A stretch of DNA of 64,000 bases, from the NCBI RefSeq assembly GCF_001426085.1, contig NZ_LMRR01000002.1, positions 1,585-65,584 on the forward strand, written 5' to 3'. Every line of letters starts with the position of its first letter. Position 1 is the first letter of the stretch. Source of the DNA: Rhodococcus sp. Leaf278. Its GTDB lineage: Bacteria > Actinomycetota > Actinomycetes > Mycobacteriales > Mycobacteriaceae. The translations under genes and the position numbers were made by a program. Below, one piece after another: positions 5,271 through 14,878 of the stretch. Under the pieces are notes generated by a model. The model worked only from the letters and a program-made list of their open reading frames with translations, did not search any database and was not told the DNA's origin.

Positions 5271-7175
5271 ATGTCCGTCAAGCCCACCACACGCAAACGT
5301 GTCCATCCCGTCGACGAAGTGCTCCCCGTTCCGAAACTTGCCGCCTACGGGTTCCAACATGTCGTCGCGTTCTACGCCGGCGCGGTCTTGGTACCGATCA
5401 TCATCGGCAGCGCGATCGGACTGACCAACGAACAACTGATTCATCTGATCAATGCCGACCTGTTCACCTGCGGCATCGCGTCGATCATTCAGTCCGTCGG
5501 ATTCTGGAAGATCGGTGTCCGGCTGCCGCTGCTGCAGGGCGTGACGTTCGCCGGTGTCTCTCCGGTGATCGCAATCGCGATGGCGAACGGCGGCGGCACC
5601 GAGGGGTTGCTGTACGTCTACGGCGCCGTCATCGTGGCCGGCCTCGTCACGTTCTTCATGGCGCCGTACTTCAGCAAGCTGTTGCGTTTCTTCCCGCCGG
5701 TGGTGACCGGTACCGTCATCACGATCATCGGTGTCGCCTTGCTGCCGGTGGCCGTCAACGATGCGGTGACCAATCCCGCTACGCACGAACAGGACCCGAC
5801 CAACGGGCGGTGGATGGCGTACGCGATCGGCACACTGCTGATCATCGTGTTGATCCAACGGTTCTTCAAAGGATTCATGGCCACCATTGCCGTGCTCCTC
5901 GGCCTGGTCATCGGCAGCGCCGTCGCATTCGTGCTGGGAGACATGAACTTCGACGGCACCTCGGAAGCATCATGGGTCGGTTTCACTCAGCCCTTCCTGT
6001 TCGGTGTTCCCAAATTCAGTGTCATCGCCATCATTTCGATGATCGTCGTCATGCTCATCATCGCGGTCGAAACCACCGGCAGCGTGTATGCCACCGGTGA
6101 GATCGTCGGCAAACGCATCAAGAAGGACGACATCGCCGCGACACTGCGCGCAGACGGCGTTGCTACCGTCATCGGTGGCACGTTCAACTCGTTCCCGTAC
6201 ACGGCATTCTCAGAGAACGTCGGTCTGGTCCGGCTGACCGGTGTTCGCAGCCGGTGGGTGGTGGCCACGGCCGGCGGCATCATGATTCTGCTCGGCTTGC
6301 TGCCCAAAACGGCAGCAGTCGTGGCATCCATCCCGCCGCCGGTGCTCGGCGGAGCCGCGCTCGCGCTGTTCGCGACCGTCGCCGTGGTCGGAATCCAGAC
6401 CCTCTCGAAGGTGGACTTCACCGATCACCGCAACCTGATCATCGTTGCTACCAGTCTCGGACTGGCGATGCTCGTCACCATCCAGCCCACCGTCTCGGAA
6501 GGCGTACCGGACTGGCTCGCAATGCTGTTCGGCAGTGGCATCGTTCTGGGCGCTGTCTCGGCAATCGTGCTCAACGTGTTGTTCTTCCATATCGGAAATC
6601 GCGGGCAGGCCGTCGCCGGTGGTCCAGGGAAGGGCATCACCCTCGACCAGGTCAACGAGATGTCATCCGAGGACTTCGCTGCCACGTTCGGCGGCTTGGT
6701 GCAGGGCACCCCGTGGGTTGTCGAACGCGCGTACCAGCAGCGGCCTTTCGCCGATGCGCACGGTCTACGCGAGGCCTTCCAGGAGGCACTGTTGGCCGGC
6801 ACAACCGAGGAGCAGATCGAACTGATCAACAGCTATCCCGATCTCGGCAGCGAGGACGCCACCGGCACCCTCAACGCAGCGGACCACGTCGGCTTGTCCA
6901 ACTTGGAGGAGGACGAGCACGACAACATCGTGCAACTCGCCGCCGAATACCGCGAGCACTTCGGCTTTCCGCTGGTGATCTGCGCGCGGGAGACCGAGCG
7001 CTACGATCGAGTCCTGGCCAACGGTTGGTCGCGCGTCGAGAACGCGCCGTCGGCAGAGCGGTCGTTTGCCATGATCGAGATAGCCAAGATCGCGAACTAC
7101 CGATTCGACGATCTGGTGGCCGATGCCAACCCGATCGCGGCCGCGCGCTTCGGTCGCATCAACGACTTCAGATAG
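5271..7175 (+). CDS. NCS2 urate/xanthine permease fused to an OHCU decarboxylase-like domain
   Basis: 634 residues. Residues about 20-450 form a nucleobase:cation symporter 2 permease with some 12 hydrophobic segments (GFQHVVAFYAGAVLVPIIIG at the start, then PLLQGVTFAGVSP, and ETTGSVYATGEIVGK as the conserved NCS2 loop). After a linker (GKGITLDQVNEM), residues about 465-634 follow the OHCU decarboxylase fold, including EYREHFGFPLVICAR. In this domain the usual HPDL reads YPDL (Tyr522) and the usual EQ pair after it is DH, so the catalytic residues appear lost. Uptake of urate or xanthine is inferred from the cluster. A small ribosome binding site (GAGGTG) precedes the ATG. Confidence 0.88.
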   Translation: MSVKPTTRKRVHPVDEVLPVPKLAAYGFQHVVAFYAGAVLVPIIIGSAIGLTNEQLIHLINADLFTCGIASIIQSVGFWKIGVRLPLLQGVTFAGVSPVIAIAMANGGGTEGLLYVYGAVIVAGLVTFFMAPYFSKLLRFFPPVVTGTVITIIGVALLPVAVNDAVTNPATHEQDPTNGRWMAYAIGTLLIIVLIQRFFKGFMATIAVLLGLVIGSAVAFVLGDMNFDGTSEASWVGFTQPFLFGVPKFSVIAIISMIVVMLIIAVETTGSVYATGEIVGKRIKKDDIAATLRADGVATVIGGTFNSFPYTAFSENVGLVRLTGVRSRWVVATAGGIMILLGLLPKTAAVVASIPPPVLGGAALALFATVAVVGIQTLSKVDFTDHRNLIIVATSLGLAMLVTIQPTVSEGVPDWLAMLFGSGIVLGAVSAIVLNVLFFHIGNRGQAVAGGPGKGITLDQVNEMSSEDFAATFGGLVQGTPWVVERAYQQRPFADAHGLREAFQEALLAGTTEEQIELINSYPDLGSEDATGTLNAADHVGLSNLEEDEHDNIVQLAAEYREHFGFPLVICARETERYDRVLANGWSRVENAPSAERSFAMIEIAKIANYRFDDLVADANPIAAARFGRINDFR

Positions 7176-7185
7176 TGAGCGCACG

Positions 7186-7689
7186 TTGCTACACGAATGG
7201 ATAGGGCTCGACGGGTTCAACCGACTCAGCGATCGACAAGCGATGCACGCACTCTACGAGTGTTGTGCGTCGTCGATCTGGGCCCGTCGAGTAGCCCAGG
7301 GCCGCCCGTTCGACAGTCGAGATCTACTGTTGGACAGAGCAGATCGAGTGCTCGCCGAACTACCCGAAGCCGAGATAGATCACGCGCTCGACGGTCATCC
7401 CCGAATCGGCGGCAAGGCCGACAATCCGTCGTCGAAGCGGGAGCAGGCAGCGGTCACGACCGCCGGCACCGCGGTGCTCGAGAAATTGGCGGCGGGAAAC
7501 CGTGCGTACGAGGACAAGTTCGGCCATGTCTATCTGGTGTGTGCCACCGGCAGGTCCGCGGAGGACCTGCTCGCTATCCTCGAGGAGAGGCTCGACAACG
7601 ATGCCGAAACCGAGAGACGGGTGCTCCGCGTGGAACTGGCCAAGATCAATCGAATTCGCCTCGGCCGCATGCTGGGTCCGGAGCAGTGA
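7186..7689 (+). CDS. uraD: OHCU decarboxylase
   Basis: 167 residues from a TTG 10 nt after the permease stop. It converts 2-oxo-4-hydroxy-4-carboxy-5-ureidoimidazoline to (S)-allantoin, the last step of urate breakdown. Here the catalytic signature is intact: GHPRIGGK holds the active-site histidine and SKREQA holds the Glu-Gln pair. The C-terminal ETERRVLRVELAKINRIRLG is typical. It is translationally linked to the next gene (GTGA overlap at 7686). The TTG start has only a weak ribosome binding site, but no better in-frame start is present. Confidence 0.88.
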   Translation: MLHEWIGLDGFNRLSDRQAMHALYECCASSIWARRVAQGRPFDSRDLLLDRADRVLAELPEAEIDHALDGHPRIGGKADNPSSKREQAAVTTAGTAVLEKLAAGNRAYEDKFGHVYLVCATGRSAEDLLAILEERLDNDAETERRVLRVELAKINRIRLGRMLGPEQ

Positions 7690-8012
7690 CCGGGTTGTCG
7701 ACGCACGTGCTCGACGCCACCTCGGGGACCCCGGCGGTCGGAATGCGGGTGCGGTTGTTCCACCCCGAGAAGGGTGAGATCTCCACCGCTACCACGGACG
7801 GGGACGGACGCATCGGTGAAGTTGTACCCGGGCCGATCGATCCGGGCGTCTACCGTCTCTCGTTCGACACGGGTGACTACTTCGAGGCGACAGCGACACC
7901 GAGTTTCTACCCCGAGGTGTCCATCTCGTTCACCGTCGCCGATCCCGATGCGCACTATCACGTGCCTCTGCTGTTGTCCCCCTTTGCTTATTCGACCTAT
8001 CGCGGGAGCTGA
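7686..8012 (+). CDS. uraH: 5-hydroxyisourate hydrolase (transthyretin-like)
   Basis: 108 residues. It hydrolyses 5-hydroxyisourate, the product of urate oxidase, to OHCU. The family hallmarks are all visible: LSTHVLDATSGTPA at the N-terminus (active-site His), GDGRI in the middle, HYHVPLLLSPFAYSTYRGS at the end, with the diagnostic YRGS C-terminus. The GTG start overlaps the uraD stop by 4 nt. It lies in order uraD-uraH-urate oxidase, so the three consecutive enzymes are coupled in one transcript with the permease. Confidence 0.93.
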   Translation: MTGLSTHVLDATSGTPAVGMRVRLFHPEKGEISTATTDGDGRIGEVVPGPIDPGVYRLSFDTGDYFEATATPSFYPEVSISFTVADPDAHYHVPLLLSPFAYSTYRGS

Positions 8013-8013
8013 C

Positions 8014-8934
8014 ATGACCGACTTGACCGGCAAGATCGTCCTCGGATCCAATCAGTACGGCAAGGCGGAGAACCGCGTGGTGCGGATCTATCGAGACTCG
8101 CCGCGGCACGAAATTCACGACATCAACGTGTCGAGCGCGCTGCGCGGTAACTTCTCCCCCGCACATCTGGTGGGTGATCAATCCAACGTGCTGCCCACCG
8201 ACACCCAGAAGCAGACCGCGTACGCGTACGCCAAGACCAAAGGCCTACTGCACCTGGAGAGTTACGGCCTCGATTTGGCTCGCCACTACGTCGACGACGT
8301 CGAGCCCGTCGACGGTGCCCGCATCGAGCTCGAGGAGTACGCCTGGGCTCGAGCAGTGATCGACGGCGTCGAGCACGACCATACGTGGACACGCAAGGGT
8401 GAGGAGATCCGCACGTCGGCAGTGACCGTCGAAGGCAAGGGTGATGCCCAGCAGACGTGGGTGATCAGCGGGTTCAAAGAGATGGTGATTCTCAAGTCCA
8501 CGGGCTCGGAATTCCACGGCTTCCTCGAGGACGACCTGACGATACTCGAGCCCACCACCGACCGTGTGATGGCGACGTCCTTGACGGCGCAATGGCGTTA
8601 CACGACAACCGATGTCGAGTGGGACGAAGTGTACGCCGGGGTGAAGGCCGCCATGATCGAACGGTTCGCCAATCTGCAGTCCTTGGCGCTGCAGCAGACG
8701 TTGTACGCCATGGGCGAGGCGGTGCTGGAGAAGTATCCGTTCATCGCCGAGATCTCGATGTCGGCCCCGAACAAGCACCACTTCGTCTACGACCTGGGCA
8801 AGTTCGGTATCGAGAACAACCTCGAGGTGTTCAACGCGGACGATCGGCCGTACGGTCTGATTCAGGCAACCGTCGAACGCGAGGATGCCCCGGACGCCGG
8901 AAGTGCCTGGCGGACTTACTCTGTCGTCGGATAG
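8014..8934 (+). CDS. Urate oxidase (uricase)
   Basis: 306 residues, the usual length for bacterial cofactor-free urate oxidase. It oxidises urate to 5-hydroxyisourate and H2O2. The expected charge-relay residues are Lys17 (QYGK) and Thr62 in LPTDTQKQT; the late signature NKHHFVYDLGKFG carries the family His. The ATG follows uraH by one nucleotide with GGGAG upstream, so it belongs to the same operon. With the permease, uraD, uraH and the xanthine dehydrogenase downstream it completes xanthine to allantoin. The symbol varies (uox/pucL), so none is given. Confidence 0.94.
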   Translation: MTDLTGKIVLGSNQYGKAENRVVRIYRDSPRHEIHDINVSSALRGNFSPAHLVGDQSNVLPTDTQKQTAYAYAKTKGLLHLESYGLDLARHYVDDVEPVDGARIELEEYAWARAVIDGVEHDHTWTRKGEEIRTSAVTVEGKGDAQQTWVISGFKEMVILKSTGSEFHGFLEDDLTILEPTTDRVMATSLTAQWRYTTTDVEWDEVYAGVKAAMIERFANLQSLALQQTLYAMGEAVLEKYPFIAEISMSAPNKHHFVYDLGKFGIENNLEVFNADDRPYGLIQATVEREDAPDAGSAWRTYSVVG

Positions 8935-9583: not shown

Positions 9584-9589
9584 ATCCTA
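9584..9589 (-). promoter_or_regulatory. -10 element of a leaderless promoter for the DUF2461 gene
   Basis: TAGGAT on the minus strand lies 6 nt before the ATG at 9577 and overlaps the last codon of the pucR-like gene. The only purine-rich stretch is directly at the start, too close to act as a ribosome binding site. Confidence 0.45.
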
Positions 9590-11155
9590 TGCCGCCCCCG
9601 TGGCCGACGACCGAGGGATGGATTGCAGAGCGAGGTAGATGTCCAGTCTGTCCTCGGTGGAGCCCAGGTCGCGGCCGAGCAGTTCCTCGACACGCTTGAT
9701 TCGATACCGGACGGTGTTGAGGTGCACATGCAACGAGTCGGCGGTTCGGTTCCATGATCCGCCGGTGGCAAGAAACTCACGAAGTGTGTCGATCAGACCG
9801 GCGTCGGCGCGCCGGTCGTACTCGAGCAGAGGAGCCAGAACATGCTCGACGAAAGATCGACGCACGTCGTCGGGCAGTGCCGACAGCATCGACACTGCCG
9901 ACGTCAGCTGCGCACCCGTGGTCACCGTGACGGGGCCGGTCCCCTGCCTGCTCATGTCGAGTGCGTGCCGGGCCGAACGCAGCGCGCCGTCGATGGTCAG
10001 ACCGGTGGCCTCCGAGCTGACGCCCACGAGAAGGCGGCTGCGACCGATACCGGAACCCAGGCGGGACAATCGGGTTCGGAGAGTCTGCGCGATGTATGGA
10101 TCCTCGGTGTTCACGATCCCGACGATGTCGCCGTGCGTGCTGGCACCGACGCAGCCGCCACCGAAGGAGGTCAGGGTGTCGCTGAGCACTGTCCTCAGCA
10201 TCTCGCGCAGATCGGCTTTACCGCTGTGCACGATCCTGATGACAACCAGCGGACGGTCTGGGTCGACGGCTGCCTGACGCAGCCGAGTCAGCGCCTCGGG
10301 CCTGGTGCTGTCGGCTTCGATCAATGCCACGGCCTGGTCTGCTATCTCACGCCGAACCAGCCGTCCTTCCTCGCGTCGAGCACGATCGAGGGCGGCGATG
10401 GCTGCCAGCTGACCGAACGCGTCGGAGATCGCTGGAGGGAAGTTGTCCCTGTCTCCCGCCACCGCGAGGAACCACCGCGTGGTCCTCTGCGCGAGCGACG
10501 GGCCGATTCCGAAGATGCTGTACGGCTCACCGTCGCTGAGAGTTGCTGTTGTGGGGAGTCTTTCGGAGGACAGTGCGGCATGCGTCAACGTGTCGACGTC
10601 GGCATCGGAGAACGCGACGACTTCGGCCACCAGCCGCCGCCCGGTAGCGGTGAAGATCAGGCATGCCATGCCCGTTTCCCTGGAGGTGTGCAGAGCCAGC
10701 TCGTCGAGGGCCCTTCCGTCTGCTACCGCGGTGAGCAGTTGGCGGTGCCGAACGAGGGAGTTGTTGAGCGAGGCAATTCGATCACCGGTGACTCGCCCGA
10801 CGAGAAACTCGGTGACCTCGCCGAACGAGACATTGTCCGGCACAGCGAGCAGAGGAAGTCCGTGCCGCTCGCAGGCGTCGATCAGATCTGCTGGAATATG
10901 GCCGAGCAAACCCTCCCCCGCCGCCAGCGCCGAGGCCCCGGATTCTGCGACAGCTCGGACGAACACCTCGCTGTCGGCCGGCGTTCGACGCCATACGAGG
11001 CCGGTGATGACCAGTTCACCGCCGGCGATGTAGCGCGACGGATCCGGCAGATCGGTGGTGTACGTCCACCGCAACGTGCGATCCAGCGCATCGGGGTCGG
11101 AGGTGAGTAATCGAATGCAGAGCCCTGTGGCGTCGAGCAAGTCCTTGACCTGCAC
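9587..11155 (-). CDS. PucR family transcriptional regulator
   Basis: 522 residues. The N-terminal PucR domain (about 1-120, VQVKDLLD onward) contains the typical LPDPSRYIAGGELVITG. A middle region resembles the GGDEF-like part of CdaR/PucR proteins, and the C-terminus is the PucR helix-turn-helix (GGSWNRTADSLHVHLNTVRY then RIKRVEELLGRDL). PucR proteins control purine degradation genes, usually in response to a late purine metabolite. Its position between urate oxidase and xanthine dehydrogenase fits that. The GTG at 11155 has GGGAGGG 5 nt upstream; an ATG at 11179 is the alternative. It diverges from the dehydrogenase genes across about 200 bp of control region. Confidence 0.88.
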   Translation of the reverse strand: MQVKDLLDATGLCIRLLTSDPDALDRTLRWTYTTDLPDPSRYIAGGELVITGLVWRRTPADSEVFVRAVAESGASALAAGEGLLGHIPADLIDACERHGLPLLAVPDNVSFGEVTEFLVGRVTGDRIASLNNSLVRHRQLLTAVADGRALDELALHTSRETGMACLIFTATGRRLVAEVVAFSDADVDTLTHAALSSERLPTTATLSDGEPYSIFGIGPSLAQRTTRWFLAVAGDRDNFPPAISDAFGQLAAIAALDRARREEGRLVRREIADQAVALIEADSTRPEALTRLRQAAVDPDRPLVVIRIVHSGKADLREMLRTVLSDTLTSFGGGCVGASTHGDIVGIVNTEDPYIAQTLRTRLSRLGSGIGRSRLLVGVSSEATGLTIDGALRSARHALDMSRQGTGPVTVTTGAQLTSAVSMLSALPDDVRRSFVEHVLAPLLEYDRRADAGLIDTLREFLATGGSWNRTADSLHVHLNTVRYRIKRVEELLGRDLGSTEDRLDIYLALQSIPRSSATGAA

Positions 11156-11354
11156 TGTTGCCCTCCCCCGGCTCGGCATTGCTGCGTTCGTTCGAGGCAA
11201 CCCTAGGTGCGTGTTGTTTCCGCCGAGTTTCGGACGGATCGCCGGACCACCGCGGATCGGTAACAGAAACTCACTACAGTTCGAGGTGACACATCGGGTG
11301 GTGGACCTGCCGGCGCGCTGGACGCTCCCGGCGAGGATGAGGTGAACGAAGACC

Positions 11355-12167
11355 ATGGATCTCGGCACTGTCGACAGCATTCTGCTTCCCGGCTCCCGGT
11401 CGGACCTGCCGCCGGGACGCGCGGACACCGCAGTACTCGCAGGTGGTACCTGGTTGTTCTCGGAGAAGCAGGATCATCTGAGTACCCTCGTCGACATCAC
11501 CGCCTTGGGCTGGGAGCCGTTGACGGTCACCGAGGCCGGGCTCGAGATCGCCGCCACGTGCACGATCGAGACGCTGGCACGATTCGATTCACCGTGGCCT
11601 GCCGCCGCACTGTTTCCTCGCTGCGCCGCAGCGCTGTTGGCTTCGTTCAAGATATGGAAGACCGCCACCGTCGGTGGCAACATCGCGTTGGCCCTGCCCG
11701 CCGGCGCGATGATCTCGGTCACCGCAGCCCTCGACGGCATCGGGCAGGTGTGGTCGGCAGACGGTCCCGAACACGACTACGACATCGCTATCGACGATCT
11801 GGTCACCGGACCGCACACCAATGCCCTTCGCGCTGGAGACGTGTTGCGCAGCATCGAGATTCCGCGGTACGCGCTCGAGGCGAGAACCGCGATGCGCACG
11901 CTCGCTCTGTCACCACTCGGCCGATCGGCCGCGGTGGTCATCGGGCGAGTCGACGTCGGCGGCGAGTTCGTGCTGACGGTCAGCGCATCGACCGTCCGCC
12001 CGTTCGTACTTCGCTTTCCCGCTCTGCCGACGGCCGCCGAGCTCGATGACACGATTGCCGCGGCAATCGGTCCCGAGCACTGGTACGACGACCCCCACGG
12101 TGCGCCGGACTGGCGTCGACACATCAGTTGTACTGCAGCCCAGCAGATTCGCGAGGAGTTGTCATGA
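11355..12167 (+). CDS. Xanthine dehydrogenase family FAD-binding subunit
   Basis: 270 residues. It resembles the medium (CoxM/XdhB) FAD subunit: AVLAGGTWLF near the N-terminus and KTATVGGNIALALPAGAMI in the middle correspond to the two FAD-binding motifs (the second usually TVGGN). The C-terminal CO_deh_flav_C-like part is short. It passes electrons between the iron-sulphur clusters and the final acceptor. It overlaps the next gene by ATGA at 12164, so the subunits are made together. GAGG lies about 13 nt before the ATG. Confidence 0.85.
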   Translation: MDLGTVDSILLPGSRSDLPPGRADTAVLAGGTWLFSEKQDHLSTLVDITALGWEPLTVTEAGLEIAATCTIETLARFDSPWPAAALFPRCAAALLASFKIWKTATVGGNIALALPAGAMISVTAALDGIGQVWSADGPEHDYDIAIDDLVTGPHTNALRAGDVLRSIEIPRYALEARTAMRTLALSPLGRSAAVVIGRVDVGGEFVLTVSASTVRPFVLRFPALPTAAELDDTIAAAIGPEHWYDDPHGAPDWRRHISCTAAQQIREELS

Positions 12168-14878
12168 TCGTCGACATCAACGGTGTACCGACCGACGTCG
12201 ATCCGCGGCCGGGCCAGTGCCTGCGGACCATGCTGCGCGAACACGAACACTTCGAAGTGAAGAAAGGCTGCGACGCGGGCGACTGCGGAGCATGTTCGGT
12301 GCTCGTCGACGGTGAGCCGGTGCATTCGTGCATCTTCCCCGCATTCCGTGCCGCCAACAGATCCGTGACCACCGTTTCCGGGCTCGGCACTCCAGAAGAC
12401 CTGCATCCCATGCAGAGTCGCTTCGTCGAGGCCGCCGGTTTCCAGTGCGGTTTCTGTACAGCAGGAATGGTCGTCACTGCATCGGCACTGACCGAGAACG
12501 ATATGGACGAACTCCCCGAGCGGCTCAAAGGGAATCTGTGCCGCTGCACCGGGTACCGGGCCATAGCCGACGCAGTAGGTGGTGTGGTGAACACCGAGAA
12601 AGCCGTCGACGGACCGGCTTGCGGGCGGTCCGTCGCTGCACCTGCCAGTGCCCGAATCGTCACCGGAATCGAGCCCTACACCCTCGATCACGCACCTCCG
12701 GGACTACTGCACGCCACGGTGCTCGGCAGTCCGCATGCGCACGCGCGCATCGTCACCGTCGACGTCACCGCCGCGGAGCGGGTGCCCGGGGTCGTGCTGG
12801 TTCTCACCGCGAAAGACAGCCCCACCGCGGCATTTTCGACTGCACGCCACGATCGCCGCGTCGACGATCCCGACGACACCCACGTGCTCGACACCGTCGT
12901 ACGGTTCATCGGCCAGCGGGTAGCGATCGTGGTCGCAGATTCGGTTGCTGCCGCGGAGGAAGGGTGCCGCGCCCTCGTTGTCGAGTACGAAGTGCTACCC
13001 GCAGTGTTCGATCCCGAATCCGCGCTCGAACCCGACGCGCCGAAGATCCACGGCGAGAAGGATGCCGCCGCTCGAATTGCGGATCCGTCACGAAACCTGG
13101 TGGCAGAGTTGCACGGCAGCACCGGAGACGTCGACGCCGCGGTCCGAGACGCAGCGGCGGTGGTCACCGGACGGTGGACCACGCAGCGAGTTCAACACGT
13201 GCACCTGGAGACCCACGGCACCATCGGATGGCTGGACGAGACGGGGAAGCTCAATCTGCGCACCAGCACTCAGGTTCCGTTCCTGGTACGTGACGAGATC
13301 TGCCAGATCTTCGGCCTTCCACGCGAGCGGGTGCGGGTGTTCACCGCACGTGTCGGCGGCGGCTTCGGCGGTAAGCAGGAGTTGCTGACCGAGGACGTCG
13401 TGGCGCTGGCAGTGCTCCACACCGGTCGACCCGTGCAATTCGAGTTCACCCGGACCGACGAGTTCACGGTGTCCCCGTGTCGGCACCCGTTCCGGGTCGA
13501 CGTCACCGCTGCCGCGAGCGCCGACGGCACGTTGACCGCGTTGTCGATCGACGTTCTCACCGATGCCGGGGCCTACGGCAATCACAGTGCCGGAGTGATG
13601 TTCCACGGGTGCGGCGAGTCCGTCGCGATCTACCGTTGCGCCAACAAGCGAGTCGATGCGAAGACCGTCTACACCAACAACATTCCGTCCGGGGCATTCC
13701 GTGGATACGGACTCGGACAGGTGATGTTCGCCATCGAGTCGGCAATGGACGACCTTGCCAGAGAGATCGACGTCGATCCGTTCGAGTTTCGCCGACGCAA
13801 CGTGATCGTCCCCGGCGACGACATCGTCGCCGCGCATCTGGAGGAAGACGACCTGCAGTTCGGAAGTTACGGCCTCGATCAGTGCATCGACCTGGCCCAG
13901 GCAGCTCTGCGACGCGGCAACGGTGAGCATGCCCCGACAGGATGGAAAGTCGGCGAAGGAATGGCGGTGGCGATGATCGCGACCATTCCACCACGCGGTC
14001 ATCGCGCCGAGACTTCCGTAGCACTGCTGCCCGAGGGGCGGTACGAGATACGCGTCGGGACAGCAGAATTCGGGAACGGGACCACTACCGTGCACACCCA
14101 GATCGCAGCGAGCGAGTTGGGCACCTCGGTCGATCGCATTCGGGTCGATCAGTCCGACACCGATTCCACCACCTACGACACCGGAGCCTTCGGTTCGGCC
14201 GGCACCGTGGTTGCGGGCAAGGCTCTGTACGCGGCAGTACGCGCCCTGTCTGCGCGGATCGTCGATATCGCGGCAACCGTTGCCGGACAACGTAACTCGG
14301 ACTGCATCCTGGGTCCCGAAGGCGTGCGGTGCGGCGATCGGTTCGTCACCCTCGACGACATCCTGGCAACGGCGGGGGGATCACTGGTCACCGAGGGCAA
14401 CAGCGGCGGGCTCCCGCGATCGCTGGCCTTCAACGTCCAGGCCTTCCGGGTGGCGGTGGACGAGGAGACCGGCACCGTGCGGATTCTGCACTCGGTGCAG
14501 AGTGCGGACGCCGGAACGGTGATGAACCCCCAGCAGTGCCGCGGTCAGGTGGAAGGCGGCGTTGCGCAGGCCATCGGCAGCGCACTGTACGAGGAAATCC
14601 GCACCGACGGTGCCGGTCTGGTCACCACCGATTCCATCCGGAGCTATCACGTTCCGCAGTTCGCGGACATTCCGCGGACCGAAGTTCTGTTCGCCGACAC
14701 CTACGACCGGTTGGGCCCTTTCGGTGCGAAGTCGATGAGCGAGTCTCCGTACAACCCGGTCGCTCCTGCGCTGGCAAACGCCATCCGTGATGCCGTGGGG
14801 GCGAGGCTGTACGACCTACCGATGTCCTCGGACCGCGTGTGGCGAGCCGTCAGCGATCGTAGAACGTCTGCAGAATGA
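12164..14878 (+). CDS. Xanthine dehydrogenase: [2Fe-2S] subunit fused to the molybdopterin subunit
   Basis: 904 residues. Residues 1-150 are a CoxS-like iron-sulphur domain: cysteines 36, 41, 44 and 56 (GCDAGDCGAC) bind the plant-type cluster, and 95, 98, 126 and 128 (CGFC and CRC) the second cluster. After a linker at about 150-170, residues 175-904 are the large molybdopterin subunit, with GGGFGGK at 398-404 and a C-terminal KSMSESP whose Glu860 is in place of the base glutamate of the usual KGVGE. Substrate assignment to xanthine rests on the purine cluster. The fused small-large arrangement with a separate FAD subunit is less common than three genes. Its last 29 nt overlap the convergent Lrp gene. 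Confidence 0.87.
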   Translation: MIVDINGVPTDVDPRPGQCLRTMLREHEHFEVKKGCDAGDCGACSVLVDGEPVHSCIFPAFRAANRSVTTVSGLGTPEDLHPMQSRFVEAAGFQCGFCTAGMVVTASALTENDMDELPERLKGNLCRCTGYRAIADAVGGVVNTEKAVDGPACGRSVAAPASARIVTGIEPYTLDHAPPGLLHATVLGSPHAHARIVTVDVTAAERVPGVVLVLTAKDSPTAAFSTARHDRRVDDPDDTHVLDTVVRFIGQRVAIVVADSVAAAEEGCRALVVEYEVLPAVFDPESALEPDAPKIHGEKDAAARIADPSRNLVAELHGSTGDVDAAVRDAAAVVTGRWTTQRVQHVHLETHGTIGWLDETGKLNLRTSTQVPFLVRDEICQIFGLPRERVRVFTARVGGGFGGKQELLTEDVVALAVLHTGRPVQFEFTRTDEFTVSPCRHPFRVDVTAAASADGTLTALSIDVLTDAGAYGNHSAGVMFHGCGESVAIYRCANKRVDAKTVYTNNIPSGAFRGYGLGQVMFAIESAMDDLAREIDVDPFEFRRRNVIVPGDDIVAAHLEEDDLQFGSYGLDQCIDLAQAALRRGNGEHAPTGWKVGEGMAVAMIATIPPRGHRAETSVALLPEGRYEIRVGTAEFGNGTTTVHTQIAASELGTSVDRIRVDQSDTDSTTYDTGAFGSAGTVVAGKALYAAVRALSARIVDIAATVAGQRNSDCILGPEGVRCGDRFVTLDDILATAGGSLVTEGNSGGLPRSLAFNVQAFRVAVDEETGTVRILHSVQSADAGTVMNPQQCRGQVEGGVAQAIGSALYEEIRTDGAGLVTTDSIRSYHVPQFADIPRTEVLFADTYDRLGPFGAKSMSESPYNPVAPALANAIRDAVGARLYDLPMSSDRVWRAVSDRRTSAE

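Follow-up and report, generated by a model that had tools for sequence, protein, structure and literature searches.

A conserved OHCU decarboxylase-like tail, probably without catalysis, on a predicted purine/urate permease of Rhodococcus and related Actinomycetota

The UraD enzymes of zebrafish (2O70), Arabidopsis (2Q37), Klebsiella (3O7H) and Agrobacterium (2O8I), which decarboxylate 2-oxo-4-hydroxy-4-carboxy-5-ureidoimidazoline (OHCU), are the natural point of comparison for the protein described here. In the zebrafish enzyme we take His67 to be catalytic and Glu87, Gln88 and Arg161 to be functional as well, the positions themselves having been checked by alignment. OHCU domains also occur joined to other pathway proteins, namely uricase, 5-hydroxyisourate (HIU) hydrolase and, in plants, as TTL, and in Arabidopsis TTL both enzyme activities are present (PMC2834698). 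We analysed 64,000 nucleotides from Rhodococcus sp. Leaf278 (contig NZ_LMRR01000002.1, positions 1,585 to 65,584; hereafter the window), in which an OHCU decarboxylase-like domain with tyrosine in place of this histidine forms the C-terminal tail of an NCS2 permease. A literature search found no description of such a fusion in the passages available to it, including those on Mycobacterium smegmatis that follow, and it may be in print elsewhere.

In M. smegmatis, the genes for the permease (Msmeg_1293), an OHCU decarboxylase (1294), a transthyretin (1295) and uricase (1296) are all raised 3.5- to 4-fold when nitrogen is limiting (PMC4617892). Upon nitrogen starvation, Msmeg_1293 mRNA increases 15-fold in a GlnR-dependent manner, and growth on uric acid is also GlnR-dependent (PMC4222082). 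A GlnR site lies between Msmeg 1292 and 1293 (PMC3662644); GlnR binding upstream of msmeg_1293 is given as undetected in the passages of PMC4222082. Msmeg_1293 carries a phosphoarginine at R475, where arginine is found in 0.23% of homologues (PMC9604228). Placed by length alone, this residue is probably in the tail, since the tail of the window protein starts near residue 456. The window fusion and its parts are:

5271..7175, + strand: NCS2 permease fused to an OHCU decarboxylase-like putative pseudoenzyme, 634 residues, single open frame
5325..6584, + strand: NCS2 membrane part (xanthine/urate permease type), residues ~19-438, from TIGR03173, TIGR00801, PF00860, alignment and Foldseek
6651..7172, + strand: OHCU decarboxylase-like C-terminal domain, residues 461-634, including the conserved C-terminal extension FDDLVADANP
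6834..6836, + strand: codon of Tyr522, at the position of the catalytic histidine (zebrafish His67), by alignment
6882..6887, + strand: codons of Asp538-His539, at the position of Glu87-Gln88, by alignment
7101..7103, + strand: codon of Arg611, the zebrafish Arg161 equivalent, by alignment

A first-pass annotation, made from the DNA letters, had proposed that one 634-residue gene joins these two parts, and the Pfam and NCBIfam matches in a single frame bear this out. The permease belongs to NCS2 by family profiles that exceed their cut-offs across the full membrane part: PF00860 over residues 23-406 (324 bits, cut-off 27), the xanthine permease model TIGR03173 (pbuX) over residues 26-438 (510 bits, cut-off 414) and TIGR00801 (364 bits, cut-off 292). 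NCS2 proteins share the signature [QEP]-N-x-G-x-x-x-x-T and a conserved glutamate in the transport helix; both are present here, with E267, E315, N316, G318 and T323 invariant among 35 aligned fusions. The predicted fold matches UraA, SVCT1 and UapA in Foldseek. From the profile match and the accompanying urate genes, we infer that the substrate is xanthine or urate. Profiles and predicted fold are thus those of the NCS2 symporters PbuX, UapA and UraA, to which the fusion adds a C-terminal globular domain of about 170 residues, presumably on the cytoplasmic side. This tail qualifies as a UraD family member by PF09349 (residues 462-612, 121 bits, cut-off 24), by the OHCU decarboxylase model TIGR03164 (residues 464-615, 101.4 bits, cut-off 96.25) and by its predicted fold. 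A possible analogy is offered by the SulP/SLC26 transporters, which carry a soluble C-terminal STAS domain that is held to regulate transport. Their membrane domains match the predicted model structurally, but they form a different transporter family, and the tail has the OHCU decarboxylase fold, not that of STAS.

The reading of the active site in the first-pass annotation also stood when the tail was aligned with the zebrafish enzyme. Tyr522 of the YPDL motif occupies the position of His67 (2O70 numbering) and Asp538-His539 that of Glu87-Gln88, so that the histidine of HPDL/HPRI and the Glu-Gln pair are both missing, whereas Arg161 is present as Arg611. The 70 fused domains, which represent 64 distinct sequences, have tyrosine (31) or phenylalanine (39) at position 67 and in no case histidine; the position is better termed always aromatic than tyrosine. 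By comparison, His67, Glu87, Gln88, Asn108 and Arg161 are all found in 74 of 74 UraD domains that are separate or fused to an enzyme, and the arginine is also retained in all 70 fusions. The loss of histidine across the fusions, which the first-pass annotation had put forward as support for repurposing, is therefore conserved. All of these counts refer to sequences, many of them near copies, and not to independent events.

Beyond position 67 the fusions fall into two sets. In a Mycobacteriales-type group of 59, which includes Bosea and a Pseudonocardiales genome, the tail differs from UraD also by Asp-His at positions 87-88 (59/59) and by alanine or serine at position 108; the motifs NGW-R and AKIANYRFDDLVADANP are invariant or almost so among 20 members. 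The 11 distant fusions have Asp-Gln (4), Asp-Arg (3), Glu-Arg (3) or Glu-Gln (1) at positions 87-88 and asparagine (9) or threonine (2) at 108. The lone lineage that keeps Glu-Gln, locus L129, has tyrosine at the histidine position, and a fused homologue with both HPDL and Glu-Gln, the outcome that would have spoken against repurposing, did not turn up in the sample. In four members of the Rubrobacter family (L125, L126, L129 and L130), an insertion of about 22 residues directly follows the YPPLG/YPDLG motif.

These fusions came from several searches. A scan of genome contigs with the tail domain gave 57 loci in Rhodococcus/Rhodococcoides, Mycobacterium, Mycobacteroides, Mycolicibacterium, Gordonia, Williamsia, one Pseudonocardiales genome and Bosea caraganae; it used peptide patterns from the query and is biased to close relatives, and the wider looks each covered a sample. 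The permease is in the same frame as the domain, aligned over both parts, in 56 of the 57, the exception (L075) being a fragmentary metagenome contig. Among the named loci, those nearest to the window are from Rhodococcus sp. 14-2483-1-2 (domain 100% identical) and strains like it, and the R. fascians NBRC 12155 domain is 97% identical. A profile search of an even draw across the phylum found matches, fused or not, in 27 of 296 Actinomycetota genomes. When 14 of the surroundings were examined, ten had the permease fusion and four did not, and seven of the ten belong to a single family that includes Rubrobacter. Among them, the L129 domain is letter-identical to that of a Rubrobacter radiotolerans plasmid protein (L180). 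Further fusions came from a class-wide look (L166, with tyrosine and Asp-Gln) and from a Rhodococcus qingshengii plasmid (L179); the plasmid look listed 40 of 586 plasmid records, of which five were opened. The L179 record calls the homologue a 'solute carrier family 23 protein'. For comparison we used 76 rows representing 74 domains (L087 and L088 each appear twice), 57 of which are neighbours in the scan loci and three of which are fusions with uricase or HIU hydrolase. The Bosea caraganae fusion (L087) is of actinobacterial type in an alphaproteobacterium, with xanthine dehydrogenase-type genes nearby, and groups with the Pseudonocardiales genome in the tree described below, which suggests acquisition by horizontal transfer.

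No histidine-keeping NCS2-OHCU fusion was found among the sampled genomes. Three open frames of about 650 residues with HPEL and EREQ (L098, L099 and L101) seemed at first to be counter-examples. Those of L098 and L101 are stop-to-stop artefacts, in which a separate UraD follows a separate permease in another frame, and in both surroundings (L126 and L130) a genuine tyrosine-bearing fusion lies upstream; the L099 domain has nearly the same sequence as these two, whose genomes supplied the surroundings examined. We also checked long frames in the phylum of Bosea (20 loci, all 21 listed frames of at least 550 residues minus Bosea itself) and in the class of the window (20 of at least 23 frames of at least 572 residues beyond the known fusions, with G747, G825 and G749 left out). 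One of these 40 loci was a new permease fusion, the L166 mentioned above. An NCS2 permease was detected by blastp in none of the other 39, which are to be read as 'not joined to a permease' only, as stop-to-stop extension of a separate UraD gene may account for some of them. The HP motif is kept in 38 of them; the exception is L158 (1896-3578, - strand), a 561-residue open frame with an OHCU-like stretch that lacks the histidine (LPDLSA) and has no NCS2 permease. Histidine, glutamate, glutamine and asparagine are all kept where an OHCU domain is joined to uricase (L131, L132) or HIU hydrolase (L087), in contrast to the permease fusions, so that fusion by itself does not entail the histidine loss.

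In a tree built from 27 fused and 20 other domains (47 in all), a branch supported at 100/99 separates all fused domains from the rest, and under midpoint rooting this clade nests among TIGR03164-type UraD. An artefact of the signature columns was ruled out by a second tree without zebrafish columns 60-95 and 108, in which the fused grouping stays with a Shimodaira-Hasegawa-like approximate likelihood ratio of 98 (46 rows, a divergent copy on contig C7 of the window's own genome being left out); L166 and L179 are outside both trees. The long branches (zebrafish and the own-genome copies on contigs C7 and C23) fall outside the fused clade. The fusion is therefore probably one old event and not 70. 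Since L129 keeps Glu-Gln without the histidine, the histidine appears to have been lost first. Adjacent unfused pairs likely represent the starting state: permease and uraD overlap by four bases on two Deinococcus plasmids, lie three bases apart in the same frame on a Priestia plasmid and abut in a member of the Rubrobacter family (L133), and they are two genes in Rubrobacter xylanophilus (PMC4016543).

The ratio of nonsynonymous to synonymous substitution rates (dN/dS; Nei-Gojobori with Jukes-Cantor correction) was estimated for ten pairs within Rhodococcus, where dS exceeds 1 in some pairs and the ratios are rough. It ranges from 0.017 to 0.052 in the permease part, from 0.022 to 0.100 in the tail and from 0.034 to 0.128 in the neighbouring uraD; the tail is below uraD in eight of ten pairs and above the permease in eight of ten. 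The tail is under strong purifying selection in Rhodococcus, and these values rule out pseudogene decay. Chance or sequencing error is excluded by a histidine change common to the fused relatives.

We propose that the tail is a dead but selected cytoplasmic module of a purine/urate importer and, somewhat more likely than not, a ligand-sensing or gating domain. Adjacent permease and uraD genes would have fused once, long ago, while a second, separate uraD retained the enzymatic step. The tail would then have lost the catalytic histidine to tyrosine or phenylalanine and, lineage by lineage, the Glu-Gln pair, keeping its fold, the substrate-side arginine and several other polar residues. It could now bind urate, OHCU or allantoin as a ligand from the pathway and thereby control how fast the permease transports or how stable it is. 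The order of events, the ligand binding and the transport control are all conjectural steps in this scheme. That the tail would no longer decarboxylate OHCU is well supported, because the histidine is lost in every fusion and a second uraD is conserved; that it still has a function is indicated by the selection on it. All 59 members of the Mycobacteriales-type group have an aromatic residue and Asp-His at the former active site, and this fixation suggests that the pocket itself has a role, which favours ligand sensing and transport control over docking alone. A more specific version, which we hold tentatively, is that the tail senses how much of an intermediate of the urate pathway is present in the cytoplasm and gates the importer accordingly, the Mycobacteriales pocket having been rebuilt (aromatic/Asp-His) for a new ligand.

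Several points weigh against this proposal. Most of the old active-site polar residues are altered in the Mycobacteriales-type group, and the old ligand may not fit. The histidine was probably lost in a single event, and the counts are not independent trials. The full-length structure model is only moderate (predicted local distance difference test 75.8, predicted template modelling score 0.62). Finally, the R. radiotolerans plasmid carries no PF09349 match other than the fusion. A genome with the same domain (G087) has one more fusion plus an unfused uraD on a different contig.

A less likely explanation is that the dead tail is a docking module, which pairs with a working UraD, uricase or HIU hydrolase and channels urate and its unstable products at the importer. 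Coupling would be sensible given that HIU and OHCU are metastable, with half-lives of 7.2 and 9.6 min (PMC4562309). The fusion adjoins a uraD in all 57 scan loci, where a separate domain with HPRI or HPDL plus Glu-Gln lies in the examined flank, and the enzyme-joined domains of L131, L132 and L087 show that OHCU domains can be coupled to pathway partners. Zebrafish UraD, moreover, is a dimer with Cys66, beside His67, at the interface (PMC5445154). However, in the window the tail is of TIGR03164 type and its neighbour of TIGR03180 type, with 18.5% identity between them, and in Bosea the neighbour is itself a UraD-HIU hydrolase fusion. Identity to the own neighbour is 15.9-28.8% (median 19.5%) across the 57 loci, and at such values a UraD-UraD dimer contact has probably not been preserved by descent; the closer values in two Rubrobacter-type genomes (35.4% and 41.3%) would permit such a contact. 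Docking alone also leaves the fixed Asp-His unexplained. Repurposing of the domain as something other than a second decarboxylase, as first suggested, thus holds up through the uniform histidine loss, the single clade, the accompanying uraD and the purifying selection, while the sequence does not decide among sensor, channelling partner and docking module.

We consider it improbable that catalysis was relocated, with His539 and Asp538 taking over and the tail still acting as an enzyme, perhaps on another ureide. The fixed Asp-His pair of the Mycobacteriales-type group, the retained Arg161 equivalent and the fold are consistent with this, but all 11 distant fusions lack a histidine at either position, which confines it to that group, where Asn108 is lost too and, throughout the scan loci, an intact UraD stands alongside. 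Least probable of all is that a fused copy, made redundant by the second uraD, persists only as a folded tail for permease stability or dimerisation: the variety of the 11 distant fusions at the former Glu-Gln position, with four different pairs, and the dimers formed by NCS2 permeases as well as by zebrafish UraD would suit such a passive remnant, but the low dN/dS and the strongly conserved motifs argue for a specific role, and unfused NCS2 permeases work without such a tail, and other bacteria carry the unfused pair.

By sequence, the tail of this predicted purine/urate importer is real, of old origin, conserved and probably a pseudoenzyme, and the fused clade extends over two or more classes of Actinomycetota, Actinomycetes and Rubrobacteria among them. 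It offers a natural case of an enzyme domain apparently without catalysis that is kept for another purpose, with the working enzyme adjacent as a control, and an entry point for experiments on the control of purine import in bacteria. If the sensing or gating proposal is true, it would mean direct metabolite feedback on purine uptake in actinobacteria. The tail passes the NCBIfam decarboxylase cut-off, and the R. radiotolerans record names the permease fusion a 'uraD' decarboxylase despite its tyrosine. Reconstructions of the pathway can therefore list such a tail as a decarboxylase, which it probably is not.

The surroundings in the window look like a urate-catabolism cluster from a Rhodococcus close to R. 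fascians:

7123..7689, + strand: uraD, separate OHCU decarboxylase of the TIGR03180/PRK13798 subfamily, from profiles and alignment (longest open reading frame; the real start is probably near 7186)
7689..8012, + strand: uraH, hydroxyisourate hydrolase, TIGR02962 (start approximate)
8008..8934, + strand: uricase, factor-independent urate hydroxylase, TIGR03383 (start approximate)
9587..11428, - strand: PucR-type regulator, PF07905 and PF13556
11355..14878, + strand: xanthine dehydrogenase-type genes, with the FAD subunit at 11355-12167 and a joined iron-sulfur/molybdenum subunit at 12128-14878

The xanthine dehydrogenase-model matches fall under the equivalog cut-offs, and a MobA-like nucleotidyltransferase lies upstream of the fusion on the opposite strand. 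The neighbouring uraD keeps HPRIGG and Glu-Gln, as the first-pass annotation had noted, and scores 219.8 bits with PRK13798, 178.6 with TIGR03180 and 51.8 with TIGR03164. Within the genus of the window, 29 of 37 genomes have a PF09349 match; these overlap with the 57 scan loci, and all 29 have a match in a frame of at least 653 residues plus a shorter-frame match on the same contig. A blastp comparison of the examined flank with the window uricase gave no match in ten Gordonia loci (L064, L067, L068, L070, L071, L076, L078, L079, L083 and L084), in L072 (Mycolicibacterium) or in L087 (Bosea), all of which have the fusion, uraD and uraH. Three further open reading frames were tested in L070, of which one is a methionine synthase and two matched no family. 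Another urate oxidase may serve in these loci.

Two further copies of the domain occur elsewhere in the genome of the window. On contig C7 (163835-164257; L185 4710-5297), a stand-alone OHCU decarboxylase-like protein lacks both the histidine (LPEPG) and Glu-Gln; it matches PF09349 with 84 bits and is possibly another dead family member. An allantoicase gene (PF03561, 285 bits) lies about 2 kb away from it, and other genomes of the genus have matches similar to this protein. The copy on contig C23 (10089-10547; L003/L186), also a PF09349 match, has HPRIGE and Glu-Gln intact and lies away from the urate cluster.
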